A DNA stretch of 64,000 bases, taken from NCBI RefSeq assembly GCF_000169175.1, contig NZ_AAWS01000011.1:62001-126000 (forward strand), read 5' to 3'. Below, one piece after another: positions 50,318 to 59,400 of the stretch (positions within the stretch are counted from its first letter, which is position 1; every line of letters begins with the position of its first letter). The translations under genes were made by a program, and so were the position numbers. This DNA comes from Microscilla marina ATCC 23134. Lineage in GTDB: Bacteria; Bacteroidota; Bacteroidia; Cytophagales; Microscillaceae. Below the pieces are notes generated by a model that was not told the origin of the DNA, ran no database searches, and saw only the letters and a list, made by a program, of their open reading frames with translations.

Positions 50318-50391
50318 TGATTGCCTTTAAGTGATGTGTTTGTGTCTAAAAAAGGTTATTTTTGGAAACACTTGTTAAACTTGCTTTCAGT

Positions 50392-51234
50392 ATGGAGAAA
50401 TTTATAAACCCTTTTACCGATTTTGGCTTTAAAAAGCTATTTGGTGAAGAGCGCAATAAAGATTTGTTGATTGACTTTATCAATGAATTGCTGCATGAAA
50501 GTATACATGTGCTGACTTATTTGACCAATGAAAGGTTGGCGCAGGACTCGGTAGCTGCTGCAAATACCTTGGTTGTATATTGTGAAAATAAACAAGACGA
50601 AAAGTTTATTGTGCAGCTTCAAAAAGTGCAGCAAGGCTCAAGAATAGACCGTAGCATTTATTATACGACTTTTCCTGTTCAAGAGCAGGCAGAGCCGGGT
50701 AAAAAATGGAACTTTGAATTAAAGGGGGTATATACCATTGCCTTTCTGGACTTTGTCTTCGCCAAAAATGTCTCTACTTTTCACCACAAGGTGCAATTGG
50801 TAGATTTGGAAACCAACGAGGTGTTTAATGATAAACTACAGCTTACTTACCTCGAAATACCCAAATTTAGTAAAGAAAAGCATGAACTTGAGACGCATTA
50901 TGATAAATGGATGTATATTTTTCAGAACTTGGGTAAGTTACAAGAGCGTCCGGCGGCTTTACAAGAGAAAGTTTTTCAAAAACTACTGGATGCTGCTGAG
51001 ATAGCTCACTTTGATAAAAAACAGCAAATTGCTTATCAGGATAGTTTGAAAAATTACCGTGATTGGGATAATGTGATTCAGACTTCTCTTAAAAAGGGGT
51101 TAGAACAAGGCAGAGAAGAAGGTATAGAACAAGGTTTACATCAAACCGTCTTAAGGATGAAAGAAAAAGGTTTTTCACTGAAAGACATAAGCGACGCCAC
51201 TGGGTTAACTTTAGATCAGGTTGAACATATATAA
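50392..51234 (+). CDS. Rpn-family PD-(D/E)XK protein, possibly inactive
   Basis: 280 aa from the ATG at 50392 (MEKFINPFTDFGFKKLFG). It starts with the Rpn signature NPFTDFGFKKLFGEERNKDLLIDFINELL and ends with EQGREEGIEQGLHQTVLRMKEKGFSLKDISDATGL. Family members are recombination-promoting nucleases related to transposases. The catalytic ExQ triplet reads QLQ here (VQLQKVQ) and the upstream Asp region reads YCENKQDEK, so the metal site may be lost. No terminal repeats are seen around it, so it does not look like a mobile element on its own. Confidence 0.83.
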   Translation: MEKFINPFTDFGFKKLFGEERNKDLLIDFINELLHESIHVLTYLTNERLAQDSVAAANTLVVYCENKQDEKFIVQLQKVQQGSRIDRSIYYTTFPVQEQAEPGKKWNFELKGVYTIAFLDFVFAKNVSTFHHKVQLVDLETNEVFNDKLQLTYLEIPKFSKEKHELETHYDKWMYIFQNLGKLQERPAALQEKVFQKLLDAAEIAHFDKKQQIAYQDSLKNYRDWDNVIQTSLKKGLEQGREEGIEQGLHQTVLRMKEKGFSLKDISDATGLTLDQVEHI

Positions 51235-52897: not shown

Positions 52898-55765
52898 ATG
52901 AAAAAACTTTTTTTGTTAGACGCCATGGCTATGATCTATCGGGCGCATTTTGCTTTTAGCAAAAACCCCCGGATCAACTCTAAAGGAATGAACACCGGAG
53001 CGGTGCTTGGCTTTACTAACTCATTGGTAGAAGTATTACAAAAAGAAAATCCCACCCACATAGGCATTGCCTTTGATACTGCTGAGCCCACCTTTAGACA
53101 TATAGAATACAAAGAATACAAAGCCAACCGAGAAGAGCAACCCGAAGACATTACCAATGCCATCCCTTATATCTACAAAATGGTAGAGGCGTTTAAGATT
53201 CCGGCGTTGGTGTTGCCTGGTTACGAAGCCGACGATATTATAGGTACCATTGCCAAACGTGCTGCCCGCGAAGGGTTCGACGAGGTATACATGATGACCA
53301 TTGACAAGGATTATGCGCAGTTGGTAGAAGACAAAATATTTTTGTACAAACCCTCGTACATGGGCAATGGCATTGATATTTGGGATGTAAACAAGGTGTT
53401 AGAAAAGTTTGACATTGAGCGGGTAGATCAGGTGATTGACTTTTTGGGCATGCAAGGCGATGCTGTAGATAATATACCAGGCATACCAGGCGTAGGTCCC
53501 AAAACTGCCGTGAAGTTTTTGAAGGCGTATGGCTCGGTAGAAGGCTTGCTGGAAAATACGGATAAACTGAAAGGCAAACAAAAAGAAAAGGTAGAAGCCA
53601 GTCGAGACCAAGCGTTGCTCTCGAAAAAACTTGCCACGATTAATATAGAAGTGCCCATAGACTTTAGCGAAGAAAACCTGAAGTACGAATCGTTTGACAA
53701 AGACAAAGTGAAGGCGTTGTTTGAAGAGCTGGAGTTTAGAACCCTCACCAGACGTTTGTTTAAAGAAGATGCCCCGGCTGGTGCCACCAAGAAAAAGACC
53801 AAGCGTAGCCCCAAAGTAGCCGCCAACCAAATGGGGTTGTTTGGTGATGGCACCCCTGCCGATGATAGCCAAGCCACAGCCCCCGCCACCAGTCTGGCAA
53901 ATATTGGCAACACCGTACACCATTATTATGCTATAGATACTCCCGGAAAACGTACCGAGCTGATTGCCCATCTCAAGCAGCAAGACGAGTTTTGTTTTGA
54001 TACCGAAACTACGAGTTTAGTAGCTCAAGATGCCGAATTGGTAGGAATCGCCTTTGCTACTTATGCGGGCGAGGCGTACTATGTGCCTACACCTGCCGAT
54101 CAAAAAGAAGCCCAGGCAATTGTTGATGAGTTTAAAGAGGTTTTTGAGGACGAAAGCATTGGCAAAATTGCCCAAAACCTAAAATACGATTGGGTGGTGC
54201 TCAAAAACTATGGCATTGAGCCCAAGGGAAAGTTTTTTGATACGATGTTGGCGCATTACCTGCTGCAACCCGACATGCGCCACAATATGGACGTGCTTGC
54301 CAAGAGTTACCTCAACTATGAGCCAGTAGAAATTACGAGTTTGATTGGCAAAAAAGGGAAGAAGCAAGGCAGCATGCGCGATGTGGAACTAGATAAAATA
54401 ACCGAGTATGCAGGCGAAGATGCCGACATTACTTTGCAATTGAAAGAAATTTTTGATGCCCAGATAAAGGCTCAAGACTTGCGCCACCCTGCCCCTGAAG
54501 ATGGTGGCGAAAAAGTAACCCTAGAGAAGTTGCTCGACGAAGTAGAAACCCCTTTGATTGAGGTGCTTGCCACGGTAGAAACCAACGGAGTAAGGCTAGA
54601 CTCGGAGAGCTTGGCAAAATTGTCGAAAGAACTTGCCAAAGAGGTGGTGGTGTTGGAAGAAAAGATTTACAAAATTGCGGGTGAACAGTTCAATATTGCC
54701 TCCCCCAAACAACTGGGCGAAATCTTGTTTGGCAAACTACAGCTAGACCCCAAAGCCAAAAAAACCAAGTCGGGGCAATATGCCACGGGCGAAGAGATTT
54801 TGGTAAAGCTTGCCGACAAAAACGAGATTGTGCAGCACATCTTGGATTTTAGAGGCTTGCAAAAGCTGAAGAACACTTACGTAGATGCTTTGCCTGAATT
54901 GGTCAACAAAAAAACGGGCTTGATTCATACTTCTTATAACCAGGCCGTAGCTGCCACAGGTCGTTTGAGTTCTACCAACCCCAACCTGCAAAACATTCCT
55001 ATCCGTACCGCTCAAGGGCGTGAAGTGCGTCGTGCTTTTATTCCGCGCAGCGATGAGTTTGTATTGTTAGCAGCAGATTATTCTCAAATTGAGTTGCGTA
55101 TTATGGCAGAGTTTAGCCAGGATGCTACTATGATCAAGGCTTTCCAAAATGGCGAAGACATTCACGCCACTACCGCCAGCAAAATATACAAAGTACCGCT
55201 CGACCAAGTAGACAGCGACATGCGACGCAAGGCAAAAACTGCCAACTTTGGGATTATTTACGGTATTTCGGCGCATGGGCTTTCCGAGCGTTTGAACATT
55301 CCACGCAAAGAAGCGGGCGAGATCATCAAAGCCTATTTTGAAGAATTTCCTGCGGTGAAGCAATACATGGATGACATGATCAATAAGGCACGCGAGCAAG
55401 AGTATGTAGAAACCATACTAGGGCGTCGTCGTTATTTGCGCAACATCAATTCACGCAATGCGGTGGAGCGGGGCAATGCCGAACGCAACGCTATCAACGC
55501 GCCCATCCAAGGAAGCGCCGCCGACATGATCAAAATTGCGATGATTCGTTTGCACGAATTTCTCAAAAAAGAGCATCTCAAAAGCAAAATGATTCTGCAA
55601 GTACACGATGAATTGGTGTTTGATGCCCACAAAGATGAACTGGGCATACTAAAACCCGCCATTGTAGACTTGATGAAAAATGCTTTATCTTCTATTAATC
55701 GCACCATGCAAGTGCCTATGGAGGTAGAAGTAGGAGAGGGGACGACTTGGTTGGAGGCGCATTAG
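52898..55765 (+). CDS. polA: DNA polymerase I
   Basis: 955 aa, all three domains: 5'-3' exonuclease (1-290; GYEADDIIGTIAK, GDAVDNIPGIPGVGPKTA), 3'-5' exonuclease (about 345-545; FDTETTSL holds the Asp/Glu pair, so proofreading is probably active) and polymerase (about 560-955; motif A DYSQIELRIMAEFS near 727, motif B RRKAKTANFGIIYG near 775, motif C QVHDELVF near 902). The linker (about 290-335) has QMGLFGDG, common in Bacteroidota PolA. It replaces RNA primers and repairs DNA. Confidence 0.97.
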   Translation: MKKLFLLDAMAMIYRAHFAFSKNPRINSKGMNTGAVLGFTNSLVEVLQKENPTHIGIAFDTAEPTFRHIEYKEYKANREEQPEDITNAIPYIYKMVEAFKIPALVLPGYEADDIIGTIAKRAAREGFDEVYMMTIDKDYAQLVEDKIFLYKPSYMGNGIDIWDVNKVLEKFDIERVDQVIDFLGMQGDAVDNIPGIPGVGPKTAVKFLKAYGSVEGLLENTDKLKGKQKEKVEASRDQALLSKKLATINIEVPIDFSEENLKYESFDKDKVKALFEELEFRTLTRRLFKEDAPAGATKKKTKRSPKVAANQMGLFGDGTPADDSQATAPATSLANIGNTVHHYYAIDTPGKRTELIAHLKQQDEFCFDTETTSLVAQDAELVGIAFATYAGEAYYVPTPADQKEAQAIVDEFKEVFEDESIGKIAQNLKYDWVVLKNYGIEPKGKFFDTMLAHYLLQPDMRHNMDVLAKSYLNYEPVEITSLIGKKGKKQGSMRDVELDKITEYAGEDADITLQLKEIFDAQIKAQDLRHPAPEDGGEKVTLEKLLDEVETPLIEVLATVETNGVRLDSESLAKLSKELAKEVVVLEEKIYKIAGEQFNIASPKQLGEILFGKLQLDPKAKKTKSGQYATGEEILVKLADKNEIVQHILDFRGLQKLKNTYVDALPELVNKKTGLIHTSYNQAVAATGRLSSTNPNLQNIPIRTAQGREVRRAFIPRSDEFVLLAADYSQIELRIMAEFSQDATMIKAFQNGEDIHATTASKIYKVPLDQVDSDMRRKAKTANFGIIYGISAHGLSERLNIPRKEAGEIIKAYFEEFPAVKQYMDDMINKAREQEYVETILGRRRYLRNINSRNAVERGNAERNAINAPIQGSAADMIKIAMIRLHEFLKKEHLKSKMILQVHDELVFDAHKDELGILKPAIVDLMKNALSSINRTMQVPMEVEVGEGTTWLEAH

Positions 55766-57248
55766 ATAGCATTCAGTCGATAGCTTCTACAGCCTCAAGT
55801 CCTTAGATGCCGATGCATATCGGTGCTTCAAGTTTGACGCTGCTCTACAAGCAACTTACCGATTTTATAGGACGTTGATTTTTAGCGGTTTATAAAATCG
55901 GTAGGTAGAAGTTTTATAAACCCAACCAACGCAAGCCAAAAGTAAAACTACTTTTCAAAGCACTGGTGCAAGCTTAGCATGAGCGTAGCTTGTACCTAGT
56001 ATTGGGGAAGCTTGCAGCTTCCATTGCGCAAGCAAAACAAAGCCCAGTTCAGGCAAGCATGAATTGGGCTTTTTGTTATGCTTAGAGTAATTTGTTTTTT
56101 GCAAAAACCTGAAAGCAGGATGCTTTCTCAATAAACTAGCACAAGCTACACTGCGTTAAGCTTGCGCTAGGGGGTGTCTGGCTCAACATCCCCCAACCGA
56201 CGCAAGCCAAAAGTAAAACTACTTTTCAAAGCACTGGTGCAAGCTTAGCGTGAGCGTAGCTTGTACCTAGTATTGGGGAAGCTTGCAGCTTCCATTGCGC
56301 CAGCAAAACAAAGCCCAGTTCAGGCAAACATGAATTGGGCTTTTTGTTATGCTTAGAGTAATTTGTTTTTTGTAAAAACATGAAATCAGGATGCTTTCTC
56401 AATAAACTAGCACAAGCTACACAGCGTTAAGCTTGCGCTAGAGGGGTTTTTCCTAGCCGACGCAAGCCAAAAGTAAAACTACTTTTCAAAGCACTGGTGC
56501 AAGCTTAGCGTGAGCGTAGCTTGTACCTAGTATTGGGGAAGCTTGCAGCTTCCATTGCGCCAGCAAAACAAAGCCCAGTTCAGGCAAGCCTGAATTGGGC
56601 TTTTTGTTATACTTAGAGTAATTTGTTTTTTGCAAAAACATGAAAGCAGGATGCTTTCTCAATAAACTAGCACAAGCTACACTGCGTTAAGCTTGCGCTA
56701 GGGGGTGTTTGATGCCCCAACCAACGCAAGCCAAAAGTAAAACTACTTTTCAAAGCACTGGTGCAAGCTTAGCGTGAGCGTAGCTTGTACCTAGTATTGG
56801 GGAAGCTTGCAGCTTCCATTGCGCCAGCAAAACAAAGCCCAGTTCAGGCAAACATGAATTGGGCTTTTTGTTATGCTTAGAGTAATTTGTTTTTTGCAAA
56901 AACATGAAAGCAGGATGCTTTCTCAATAAACTAGCACAAGCTACACTGCGTTAAGCTTGCGCTAGGGGGTGTCTGGCTCAACATCCCCCAACCGACGCAA
57001 GCCAAAAGTAAAACTACTTTTCAAAGCACTGGTGCAAGCTTAGCGTGAGCGTAGCTTGTACCTAGTCTTGGGGAAGCTTGCAGCTTCCATTGCGCAAGCA
57101 AAACAAAGCCCCAGTTCAGGCAAACATGAATTGGGCTTTTTGTTATGCTTAGAGTAATTTGTTTTTTGCAAAAACATGAAAGCAGGATGCTTTCTCAATA
57201 AACTAGCACAAGCTACACTGCGTTAAGCTTGCACTAGGGGGGGATACC
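55766..57248. other. Repeat-filled intergenic region, 1.48 kb
   Basis: Between polA and the convergent ORF at 57249. Besides the tandem array (55922-57243), a hairpin CCGATTTTATA/TATAAAATCGG lies at about 55858-55902, and CCGAT/ATCGG at about 55810-55825. No open frame of interest. Confidence 0.75.
55922..57243. repeat. Five-unit tandem array of hairpin-rich 256-271-bp units
   Basis: Units: 55922-56192, 56193-56452, 56453-56716, 56717-56987, 56988-57243. They are near-identical apart from short junction differences. Each unit holds, in order: AAAAGTA/TACTTTT; GGTGCAAGCT/AGCTTGTACC (one mismatch); GGAAGCT/AGCTTCC; a terminator-like AAGCCCA...TGGGCTT with T5; AAAGCA/TGCTTT; CTAGC..AAGCT/AAGCTT..GCTAG. 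That is about six hairpins per unit and thirty over the array. There are no spacers of CRISPR type and no coding potential. Confidence 0.95.
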
Positions 57249-57731
57249 TTATTGACAATACTTGATTGTTGTTACATTTACATTTAATATTCCATTTCGT
57301 ACAATGTTCTCTACAGAAAACAAAATATTTCCTACATAGATGTAAGTCTGACCATTAACATCACCGTGCATTTCAGAAATTTGGTTACTAAAATTAATAG
57401 TCGCCTGATTATTTCCAAAAACGTTTAATCTAATAAACCCTCTTACTCCTTGAGGATATGTAGTATTAGAAGCTGATGCTATTAGTGGATCACCTCCAAA
57501 GTCTAGTTGAGTTCCAGGCTCTAATCTTTCTTCCCATGTTCCTTGTGTTGGGTAAAGGAGGCTAGACATTATGGTAATATTCCACTGAACGTTTTTGGGT
57601 AACTCTTTAATCTTGTTGTCAATAGTTACATTTACGCTACGTAAGTAAGTAGAATCATTTATTGGAGTTGGTCCAAGTACACTTAACACTCCTTCTTGTA
57701 TTACATTTAATTTTTTTTTTGAATTTGACAT
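57249..57731 (-). CDS. Hypothetical protein next to the hairpin array
   Basis: 160 aa from the ATG at 57731 (MSNSKKKLNVIQEGVLSVLG); an upstream in-frame ATG would add 14 residues. No signal peptide or membrane helix. It looks beta-rich, with STYLRSVNVTIDNKIKELPKNVQW, QGVRGFIRLNVFGNNQATINFS and QTYIYVGNILFSVENIVRNGILNVNV. Its codons are more AT-rich than those of neighbours and its stop lies 6 bp from the array end, which suggests a recent arrival. No family recognised. Confidence 0.6.
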   Translation of the reverse strand: MSNSKKKLNVIQEGVLSVLGPTPINDSTYLRSVNVTIDNKIKELPKNVQWNITIMSSLLYPTQGTWEERLEPGTQLDFGGDPLIASASNTTYPQGVRGFIRLNVFGNNQATINFSNQISEMHGDVNGQTYIYVGNILFSVENIVRNGILNVNVTTIKYCQ

Positions 57732-58138
57732 GATGTTAATAACTTTTAAGTTGGATTTACCTACTCTCTTCAAGGCTTTTCGGCAACCGCCTATTGAATA
57801 ATCAACATTGCAAACCTAGCCCAAAACTTACCTTCCCATTTTCTCAAAAAGGACAACTACTTGCTGAAAAAGGACTTTTTAACATCATCTCCGTGAAAAC
57901 CCCGAGAAACCTCTGAGAAAACCCCTATTTTGTCAAAATGCCAGTTTCCCCCGATGGTATTAGATGCCCTTAAGTGAGAATTTTACTCCCGATTTAATTT
58001 ACAATAGTCCATAGCATTTAGTCGATAGTCCATAGCTGATTTGAGTAAATATTCACCTTGTTAAATGCTGTAAACCAGTGTTTTATATTAAGATTGTGTA
58101 CTCACTTTATTTTTAAAAGTGTTTCGGTTTTACGCCTA

Positions 58139-58650: not shown

Positions 58651-59400
58651 ATGATGACCACCGATTTTTTTATCATGATTTTGGGCGAAGCAGTAGCAAG
58701 CCCAAAAGAACTATCAAAATTGAGAGCGTTTCAGCCCGAGCTTTTATGCTTTGCTGCCTCAGAGTTTACAGACCAACACATAAGTTTTTTGCGCACCACC
58801 CAAACCCCAGAGTTGACAGCCAATGACTGTAATATTTGTCAGGAGGCAAAAAATCAAGCAATGAAGAATCCCCAAACGACTGTGATTTTGCATAAATCAG
58901 CCACGGGGCAACTGAACCTGCTATCTTTTAGGCAAGCTGCTGGCGGATGTCACCACAGTAAAAAAAGCTTGGTAGAAAAACTGGCAGAGATAGAAGAAAT
59001 GCTGTTTGGTTACAGGCAAGTGAGTCAGCTACAACCTTTGCTTTGTCAGGCAATTGTGCACCATACCCTAAGCGATAAAGACCGCAACTGGATCAAAAGC
59101 TTAGAAAATGCCATAGAGCAACACTTGAGGCAAGCTTCTCTCAAGGTAGAAGAACTTGCCTCTATTGCCTGCCTGAGCAAACGCCAATTGAACCGACGCT
59201 TGCAATCAGTATTGGGGGTTACCCCAGCCCAATTAATCAGAGAAGTACAACTACAGCTTGCCTGGCAAGAACTCGCCAACGGAAAGCCCGAATCGGTTAT
59301 TCAAGTAGCATTGAACAGCGGCTTTGAGCACGCCAGCACCTTTTCTACTTTGTTTAAACAACGTTTTGGACGTTCACCCAAGCAGTGCTTAGCACAATAG
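58651..59400 (+). CDS. AraC-family transcriptional regulator
   Basis: 249 aa. The C-terminal 95 residues (about 155-249) are two helix-turn-helix units: LKVEELASIACLSKRQLNRRLQSVLGVTPAQLIREVQLQLAWQELANG and VIQVALNSGFEHASTFSTLFKQRFGRSPKQC. The N-terminal 150 residues are of unknown type, with a Cys/His-rich stretch (CNICQEAKNQ, GGCHHSKK) that may bind metal or a partner. Regulated from a short leader: the R3 element lies immediately upstream. Confidence 0.88.
   Translation: MMTTDFFIMILGEAVASPKELSKLRAFQPELLCFAASEFTDQHISFLRTTQTPELTANDCNICQEAKNQAMKNPQTTVILHKSATGQLNLLSFRQAAGGCHHSKKSLVEKLAEIEEMLFGYRQVSQLQPLLCQAIVHHTLSDKDRNWIKSLENAIEQHLRQASLKVEELASIACLSKRQLNRRLQSVLGVTPAQLIREVQLQLAWQELANGKPESVIQVALNSGFEHASTFSTLFKQRFGRSPKQCLAQ

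Follow-up and report, generated by a model that had tools for sequence, protein, structure and literature searches.

A five-unit hairpin array downstream of polA in Microscilla marina resembles a tandem REPIN cluster and probably derives from a Bacteroidota RAYT element

The intergenic region downstream of polA in Microscilla marina ATCC 23134 contains a five-unit tandem array, the unit of which is probably (rough probability 0.72) a non-autonomous, REPIN- or MITE-like unit descended from a Bacteroidota RAYT element, with the array grown in place by tandem duplication and its role now passive. For the array as a whole, the most fitting description is a tandem REPIN cluster of the BIME-like type. 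Coordinates of the array and its surroundings refer to the window, the whole stretch of 64,000 nucleotides that was analysed (contig NZ_AAWS01000011.1, positions 62,001 to 126,000). The sequence evidence for this reading comprises an end hairpin shared with other genomes, its outward polarity, its adjacency to RAYT genes elsewhere, the tip-to-tip homology of copies in genome G003, and the absence of the array from G001, a genome of the same genus.

The polA ORF (52898–55765, plus strand) is followed by the array (55921–57243) and then by a convergent ORF (57249–57773, minus strand). By repeat finder and alignment, five units lie head to tail on the plus strand at 55921–56191, 56192–56451, 56452–56715, 56716–56986 and 56987–57243, their starts spaced by 271, 260, 264 and 271 bp and the last of them terminating in a G-tract tip. 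Tandem Repeats Finder reported positions 55921–57241 (period 271, 5.0 copies, 94% matches, 2% indels, score 2344) as one of three rows across the whole window. Any two units differ at 4–9 positions in the first 250 aligned columns, and the most variable part is the linker of 5–15 nt that runs from the G-tract at the end of one unit to the C-tract of the next. The linker at the junction of units 1 and 2 (56175–56189, GGGGG to CCCCC) is the same as that of units 4 and 5; linkers 2/3 and 3/4 are unlike it in the alignment. The ORF list of the window has no ORF of at least 80 aa inside the array, no Rfam family reaches its gathering score there, and there are no spacers, only short linkers. The initial annotation, which described five long, nearly identical tandem units that were neither coding nor CRISPR and had a terminator-like stem each, is borne out on all these points; its estimate of about six hairpins per unit was too low, as seven classes were counted, every one present in 5/5 units.

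The hairpins follow the order M1, A, B, T, C, B', A' in each unit and were located by pattern. M1 (AAAAGTA..TACTTTT) lies at 55938–55955 in unit 1 and at 56209–56226, 56469–56486, 56733–56750 and 57004–57021 in units 2–5. The left end hairpin A, with its G·T mispair, occupies 55963–55996, 56234–56267, 56494–56527, 56758–56791 and 57029–57062 on the plus strand. B (GGAAGCTTGCAGCTTCC; GGAAGC...GCTTCC) lies at 56006–56022 in the first unit and at 56277–56293, 56537–56553, 56801–56817 and 57072–57088 in the others. The T hairpin, AAAGCCCAGTTCA...TGAATTGGGCTTT followed by T-rich DNA, was found by terminator search as well as by pattern on the plus strand at 56039–56072, 56310–56343, 56570–56603, 56834–56867 and, with one extra C, 57105–57139. 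C (GTTTTTTGCAAAAAC) is at 56094–56108, 56365–56379, 56625–56639, 56889–56903 and 57161–57175, and B' (GAAAGC..GCTTTC) at 56111–56127, 56382–56398, 56642–56658, 56906–56922 and 57178–57194. The right end hairpin A', with CTAG outermost, is on the minus strand at 56136–56170, 56407–56441, 56667–56701, 56931–56965 and 57203–57237.

Folding was calculated for unit 4 and compared with 200 dinucleotide shuffles. The plus strand as RNA gave −113.6 kcal/mol (z −7.5), the minus strand z −5.7 and the unit as DNA z −6.7, and in each case 0/200 shuffles folded as well. In the predicted plus-strand fold, the G-tract and C-tract also pair at the junction. The predicted fold of the unit has a long-range pairing between A and A' and a branched loop formed by B, T, C and B'. 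Between 55500 and 57800 there are 14 terminator-like sites compared with 2.8 (sd 1.7) in shuffles, and promoter-like sites show no excess (2 compared with 4.4 expected).

The array is surrounded by several other features. Upstream of it, at 55854–55906, there is a further hairpin, ACTTACCGATTTTATA...TATAAAATCGGTAGGT, which by eye resembles one within a nested element on contig C18 of the same genome (L015). A repeat of the type AATAGTCCATAG...GAGTAAATATTCACC lies at 58008–58062 and was also seen by eye downstream of polA in G001 (L329) and in a 91-bp array on C25 of M. marina (L058). A mobile-type gene for a PD-(D/E)XK nuclease family transposase (PF12784) is at 50362–51234 on the plus strand, about 4.7 kb from the array. 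An exact 14-nt match links polA (55615–55628) with the junction of units 3 and 4 (56704–56717); capture of a polA fragment was considered and not adopted, the chance of such a match being about 2% by a rough hand estimate.

The ends of the unit are related imperfect hairpins, A (CTGGTGCAAG...CTTGTACC) on the left and A' (CTAGYGCAAG...CTTGTGCTAG) on the right, which are inverted, face outwards and each keep one G·T mispair; A' terminates in CTAG and a G-tract. In the A stem, one position is G·T instead of a Watson-Crick pair, hence A·C on the other strand. With a pattern that accepts G-C or A-T equally at this position, and that takes in a few sites that are not hairpins, the mispair was present at 35/36 A sites in M. 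marina, at 11/13 in G004 and at all 26 of the sites listed, out of 42, in G003, as counted from the match rows.

Covariation was assessed in 15 distinct 26-nt A hairpins from several genera, four viral-scan sequences having been omitted from 19 distinct 26-mers. Paired cells made up 98.0%, five pairs were invariant, the mispair was G·T in 14/15, and 13 cells were changed on both sides compared with 4.3 in shuffles (0/500 as high). Because the pattern largely fixed the outer stem, only two inner pairs carry this covariation, and two of five measures were like the shuffles, namely both-side-changed pairs (420/500 as high) and further pair types (72/500). Among short-loop A matches, which were not chosen for pairing, the first inner position was paired in 60/67 and both inner positions in 53/67. 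The initial annotation had named random decay of the unit elsewhere, with no compensatory changes, among the outcomes that would refute it. The end hairpin does not show this pattern, as it has been kept in several genera and its inner stem has changed in a compensatory way. The DNA outside the CTGG end is C-rich, with C at position −6 in 55/102 cases and at −5 in 50/102. In the window units, the sequence leading up to the left A consists of AAGCA and the M1 segment, with no C-tract directly before the hairpin, and the true left end of the unit is therefore uncertain. A GT[AG]G foot was found in 0/7 distinct window hairpins and 0/45 in other stretches of the same genome, in 16/35 in G003 and in 4/115 among the genome-scan matches listed; assignment to canonical GTAG REPs was rejected on these counts.

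The window unit was not found at a second locus or as a closely similar copy dispersed in the genome; the closest sequence outside the array is 93% identical over 56 bp, and the longest match is 73% over 155 bp. The unit itself has therefore not spread recently. When the array was compared with 57 genomes, matches at E 0.001 occurred only in M. marina itself and in G001, and a distant-mode search of plasmid records with 55900–57260 gave no match. The end hairpin is more widespread. A strict pattern, CTGGCGCAAGN{3,33}CTTGTGYC, which is too narrow for the variants in the window itself, gave 42 exact matches (CTGGCGCAAG...CTTGTGYC hairpins) in M. marina, 7 in G001, 41 in G003, 7 in G004 and 6 in G037, and none in G007, G008, G018 and G024; a reversed control pattern gave none in all nine genomes. 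A scan with one genome per species returned at least 119 stretches. Besides Pontibacter, Cytophaga, Flammeovirga, Chitinophagaceae and Cyclobacteriaceae, those listed include members of other phyla, in which the matching sequence often forms no hairpin; by a simple rule of our own, a hairpin-like A is present in 82 of the 119 stretches listed and absent in 37. A viral scan gave 73 stretches, some with the hairpin (e.g. L230, L241 and L242) and many without.

Within M. marina the A hairpin is patchy and not frequent everywhere. The full pattern was present in 1/20 sampled stretches (L038), and a k-mer screen of a 400-kb sample did not bring A out, being dominated by a CRISPR array and a ATTACGAA repeat. 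A CRISPR-like array on C18 (about 40.8 kb) contains, in L054 from about position 820, 28 exact copies of ACAAGGATTGAAAC at a spacing of about 74 bp. As a dispersed, extragenic, imperfect palindrome of 20–40 nt, A agrees with REP/REPIN sequences in the broad sense; by a crude ORF rule, 13/84 sites lie inside an ORF. The string ctggcgcaag does not occur in the papers listed by a search for it, and the A hairpin was not found described in the literature searched, which mostly excludes subscription papers, where it may be in print.

The A hairpin is linked to RAYT genes. These were sought by tblastn with three RAYT queries, a simple choice of our own. Among the genome-scan matches listed, a RAYT match lies within 1 kb in 10/82 stretches with hairpin A compared with 0/37 without it (Fisher p 0.03), 8 of the 10 are at most 200 bp from A, and, on reading the rows, the A closest to the RAYT match is oriented with CTGG on the outer side in 10/10. 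Farther A copies in the opposite orientation also occur in L190 and L187, and in L135 the nearest A is about 5 kb from the RAYT match and oppositely oriented. In G003, the RAYT genes on C228 and C510 are bracketed by inverted A/A' at about 80–130 bp. Against NCBIfam NF047646 (REP-associated tyrosine transposase, cut-off 80), two A-bracketed proteins reach 100.4 bits (G003) and 93.9 bits (L177). The G003 RAYT also matches solved transposases by sequence (2xm3 and two more, E about 2e-4), all three of which we take to be of the IS200/IS605 kind. A copies at most 300 bp apart in G003 form 9 outward, 0 inward and 5 same-way pairs; in M. marina the corresponding numbers are 7, 4 and 12, much of this inside arrays.

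Two RAYT genes were found in the M. marina assembly (98% complete), neither bracketed by A. Their proteins score 72.5 and 69.9 bits on NF047646, below the cut-off of 80, and A-bearing tandem units lie about 0.6 kb from the RAYT gene on C25 (L058). Since these genes are not bracketed by A and score below the cut-off, the partner transposase would be missing or its target changed. The physical link to a RAYT gene that is associated with REP/REPIN sequences in the broad sense is found in relatives and not in the M. marina genome, which counts against the RAYT-derived reading. Both its RAYT genes and those of G001 on C202 and C254 lie among tandem repeats of other hairpins; the arrays of such hairpins beside RAYT genes in L351 (G001 C254) and L352 (G000 C5) have periods of 65–175 bp. 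IS605-family TnpA genes (PF01797) were rejected as the mobiliser, with 0 A-pattern matches in the six surrounding stretches L031–L036.

G003 contains both RAYT-bearing and RAYT-less copies of the element. The two that carry the gene share 92% identity across the 783 bp between their tips, and their alignment runs 3 nt beyond CTGG on one side and 6 nt beyond CCAG on the other. The three that lack it (L340, L341 and L342) share 93–98% identity across 281–286 bp, and here the alignment runs 5–6 nt beyond CTGG and 4–8 nt beyond CCAG. In a plus-strand comparison at E 1e-15 or better, the flanks of the three RAYT-less copies had no mutual match, and for the two RAYT elements the one further match reported, at 67%, was to an older RAYT fragment on the left side of one element. 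By eye, the RAYT element in L345 (G003 C510) seems to be inserted in another RAYT gene, a fragment of which lies to the left. L340–L342 are alike between two fixed ends and have unrelated flanks, as is typical of MITE-like elements, and the G003 copies are taken to have transposed as discrete units, some carrying the RAYT gene and some not. In layout the window unit corresponds to the RAYT-less form, with A facing outward on the left, A' facing outward on the right and hairpins between; it is diverged, its matches outside the array being limited to those given above.

In the proposed pathway, a HuH RAYT would recognise the A hairpin as single-stranded DNA and would have moved the ancestral element. 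The array would then have grown in place by tandem duplication, perhaps set off by cleavage some 6 nt beyond the end hairpin, and exchange between units would keep the copies alike.

The array has the features of a tandem REPIN cluster, namely head-to-tail units, an inverted pair of REP-like hairpins in each and short linkers. As described in the accessible parts of two accounts, the tandem REPIN clusters of Pseudomonas fluorescens SBW25 (PMC3116915) and BIMEs (PMC3733652) are likewise built of inverted pairs of REP-like hairpins, arranged in tandem units with flanking segments and short non-repeated DNA between them, and are extragenic, often between convergent genes. Unlike these, as they are described there, the window units lack the GT[AG]G foot, contain seven hairpins each, have a nearly fixed G·T mispair in the end hairpin and belong to a Bacteroidota host. 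In the portion of the latter account available, TIRtrons (PMC3733652) are RAYT genes bracketed by long terminal inverted repeats that may be partly self-complementary. The elements described here are similar in that a RAYT gene is bracketed by inverted repeats and copies occur in dimers or groups; the window units differ in carrying no RAYT gene. The GGGGWSAS sequence given there for some TIRs (PMC3733652) was not found in the 25 nt next to the tips of six G003 stretches, nor in the window array. An excerpt on TnpA_REP proteins (PMC6006769) assigns to Bacteroidetes a subclass 2.6 with the motifs NH[LIV]H, WQ and YIH[QN]NP and a length of 179; atypical secondary structures flank its members and recur at other places in the same genome. 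By motif only, the M. marina RAYT on C25 (NHIH/WQ/YIHNNP, 189 aa) and that of G003 (NHVH/WQ/YLHNNP, 183 aa) resemble this subclass as defined in that excerpt (PMC6006769), the latter departing by one residue. The A hairpin sequence is not given in the available parts of that account (PMC6006769). Among the candidates first proposed for the array, a BIME-like array and an expanded intergenic repeat thus came closest, the end hairpins belonging to a REP-like family that brackets RAYT genes in other Bacteroidota.

The corresponding place in G001 has polA (96% identity over the last 254 aa), a minus-strand ORF, and the start of an ORF that reads like the AraC-type gene at window position 58651, a gene with Pfam matches. 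This syntenic stretch has no A pattern and no blastn match to the array. Either arrival of the array in this lineage or loss in G001 would account for the difference. The recent expansion suggested earlier is in keeping with this absence, which fits a lineage-specific expansion and would fit a loss in G001 too. The polA stretches of G003 and G004 contain no array and say little, as that of G003 covers about 0.35 kb downstream and shared neighbours were not established. In the window, a DUF805b RNA (RF02914, 44.8 bits, over the gathering score) lies at 57758–57793 on the minus strand, where the convergent ORF starts; a similar leader, recognised by eye, stands in the corresponding position of G001 ahead of a different minus-strand ORF, as if the gene behind the DUF805b-type leader had been swapped.

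How the array was amplified is a separate question from where its unit came from. Plain duplication, through slippage or unequal crossing-over and independent of the element ends, is compatible with the mobile origin and has, in our estimate, a little under an even chance of being the whole explanation of this step. Other A-bearing arrays in M. marina have periods of 91, 177, 178, 201, 229, 231, 254, 298 and 400 bp, and those in G003 periods of 55 and 108 bp. The units of some of them contain host DNA, and by eye those on C26 repeat the apparent last codons of a gene. Such a range of periods, often with flanking host DNA included, is what plain duplication would give, as is the identity of the linkers after units 1 and 4, which is expected from unequal exchange. 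Many arrays also lack A arms; among 97 tandem-array edges in the M. marina and G003 stretches, 70 have no tip within 300 bp.

The remaining 27 edges count against this explanation. Compared with random positions in the same neighbourhoods, 14 of them lie 0–12 nt outside a tip (1.43 expected) and 10 lie 5–7 nt outside it (0.33 expected), with the reservation that edges are not independent, five of 12 arrays coming from two loci and the window supplying three edges. At least one edge lies 0–12 nt outside a tip in 10/12 arrays by our own grouping, the 91-bp and 400-bp arrays being the exceptions. The sequence just outside the tip varies (TGGGGG, GTGGGG, CGTGTG, CTAATG), and the distance stays near 6. 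In the wider set, among the genome-scan matches listed, the effect is weaker, with 3/11 edges at tips. Array edges about 6 nt outside the hairpin, which also occur where a unit includes host DNA, suggest cutting at the element tip; slippage induced by the hairpin could be an alternative cause. On this basis we put forward, as a tentative and rather doubtful proposal, that growth is anchored at the tip: a HuH nuclease would cut at a set distance of about 6 nt outside the end hairpin, in largely any sequence, and the cut end would be rejoined upstream, so that the DNA between is duplicated in tandem, even where it is the tail of a neighbouring gene. The polA array would then be a full-length case, and the RAYT elements of Bacteroidota would be functional transposons, each moving as a whole. 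The accessible part of the SBW25 study (PMC3116915) refers to a second, unexplained mechanism for tandem REPIN clusters.

The genomic context of A sites bears on the present role of the array and is in keeping with the RAYT-derived reading as well as with selection on RNA. By the crude ORF rule, which set aside 13 of the 84 sites as lying within an ORF and 11 as lying at an edge, 60 sites were classified, of which 27 are between convergent genes, 26 between genes in the same direction and 7 between divergent genes; the 370 background gaps of at least 60 bp comprise 66, 217 and 87, respectively (chi-square p 1e-5). Either avoidance of promoters or use as terminators would give the convergent excess. 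In 41/62 cases (compared with 21; p 0.015, with copies that are not independent), the strand of A that allows G·U pairing is carried by the transcript of the facing gene closest to it, which hints against a purely DNA-level reading.

A structured ncRNA, or a 3'-UTR array selected at the RNA level for mRNA stability or termination, would draw on this context and strand bias, on the low folding energy of unit 4 on either strand and on the excess of terminator-like sites. We nevertheless regard it as improbable. There is no Rfam match at the gathering score, both strands fold well and so does the unit with DNA parameters, promoter-like sites fall below expectation, and the congener G001 does without the array. 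Moreover, the mispair has opposite polarity at the two ends, and no single transcript would have the G·U form at both. Because the polarity of the mispair follows the ends of the element and not one strand, a dedicated structured ncRNA, one of the candidates initially proposed, is not supported as the main reading; the modest bias of 41/62 leaves room for some role of RNA. The T hairpin is predicted to be a good terminator candidate on the plus strand in each unit, and transcription of the facing genes probably stops at these terminator-like hairpins. Under the preferred reading of a RAYT-derived unit, the present role of the array is most likely passive, with candidate terminators that lie 3' of two convergent genes and would stop their transcription.

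An integron-like attC array or other site-specific recombination array, which the tandem imperfect palindromes might bring to mind, a recombination site having been among the initial candidates, can be dismissed as highly improbable, as 0/18 integrase matches in the M. marina genome exceed the curated cut-off, no ORFs of at least 80 aa lie between the hairpins, and the units are nearly identical, unlike gene cassettes.

The dissemination of REP sequences is called poorly understood in the available section of one account (PMC8266576). The A family provides a handle on this spread, as it combines an end hairpin common to many Bacteroidota and a nearly invariant mispair with bracketed RAYT genes, RAYT-bearing and RAYT-less copies that have the same tips, and a distance between hairpin and array edge that is often near-constant. 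This distance predicts a cut site, and arrays such as that downstream of polA may show how clusters of REP-type repeats grow.
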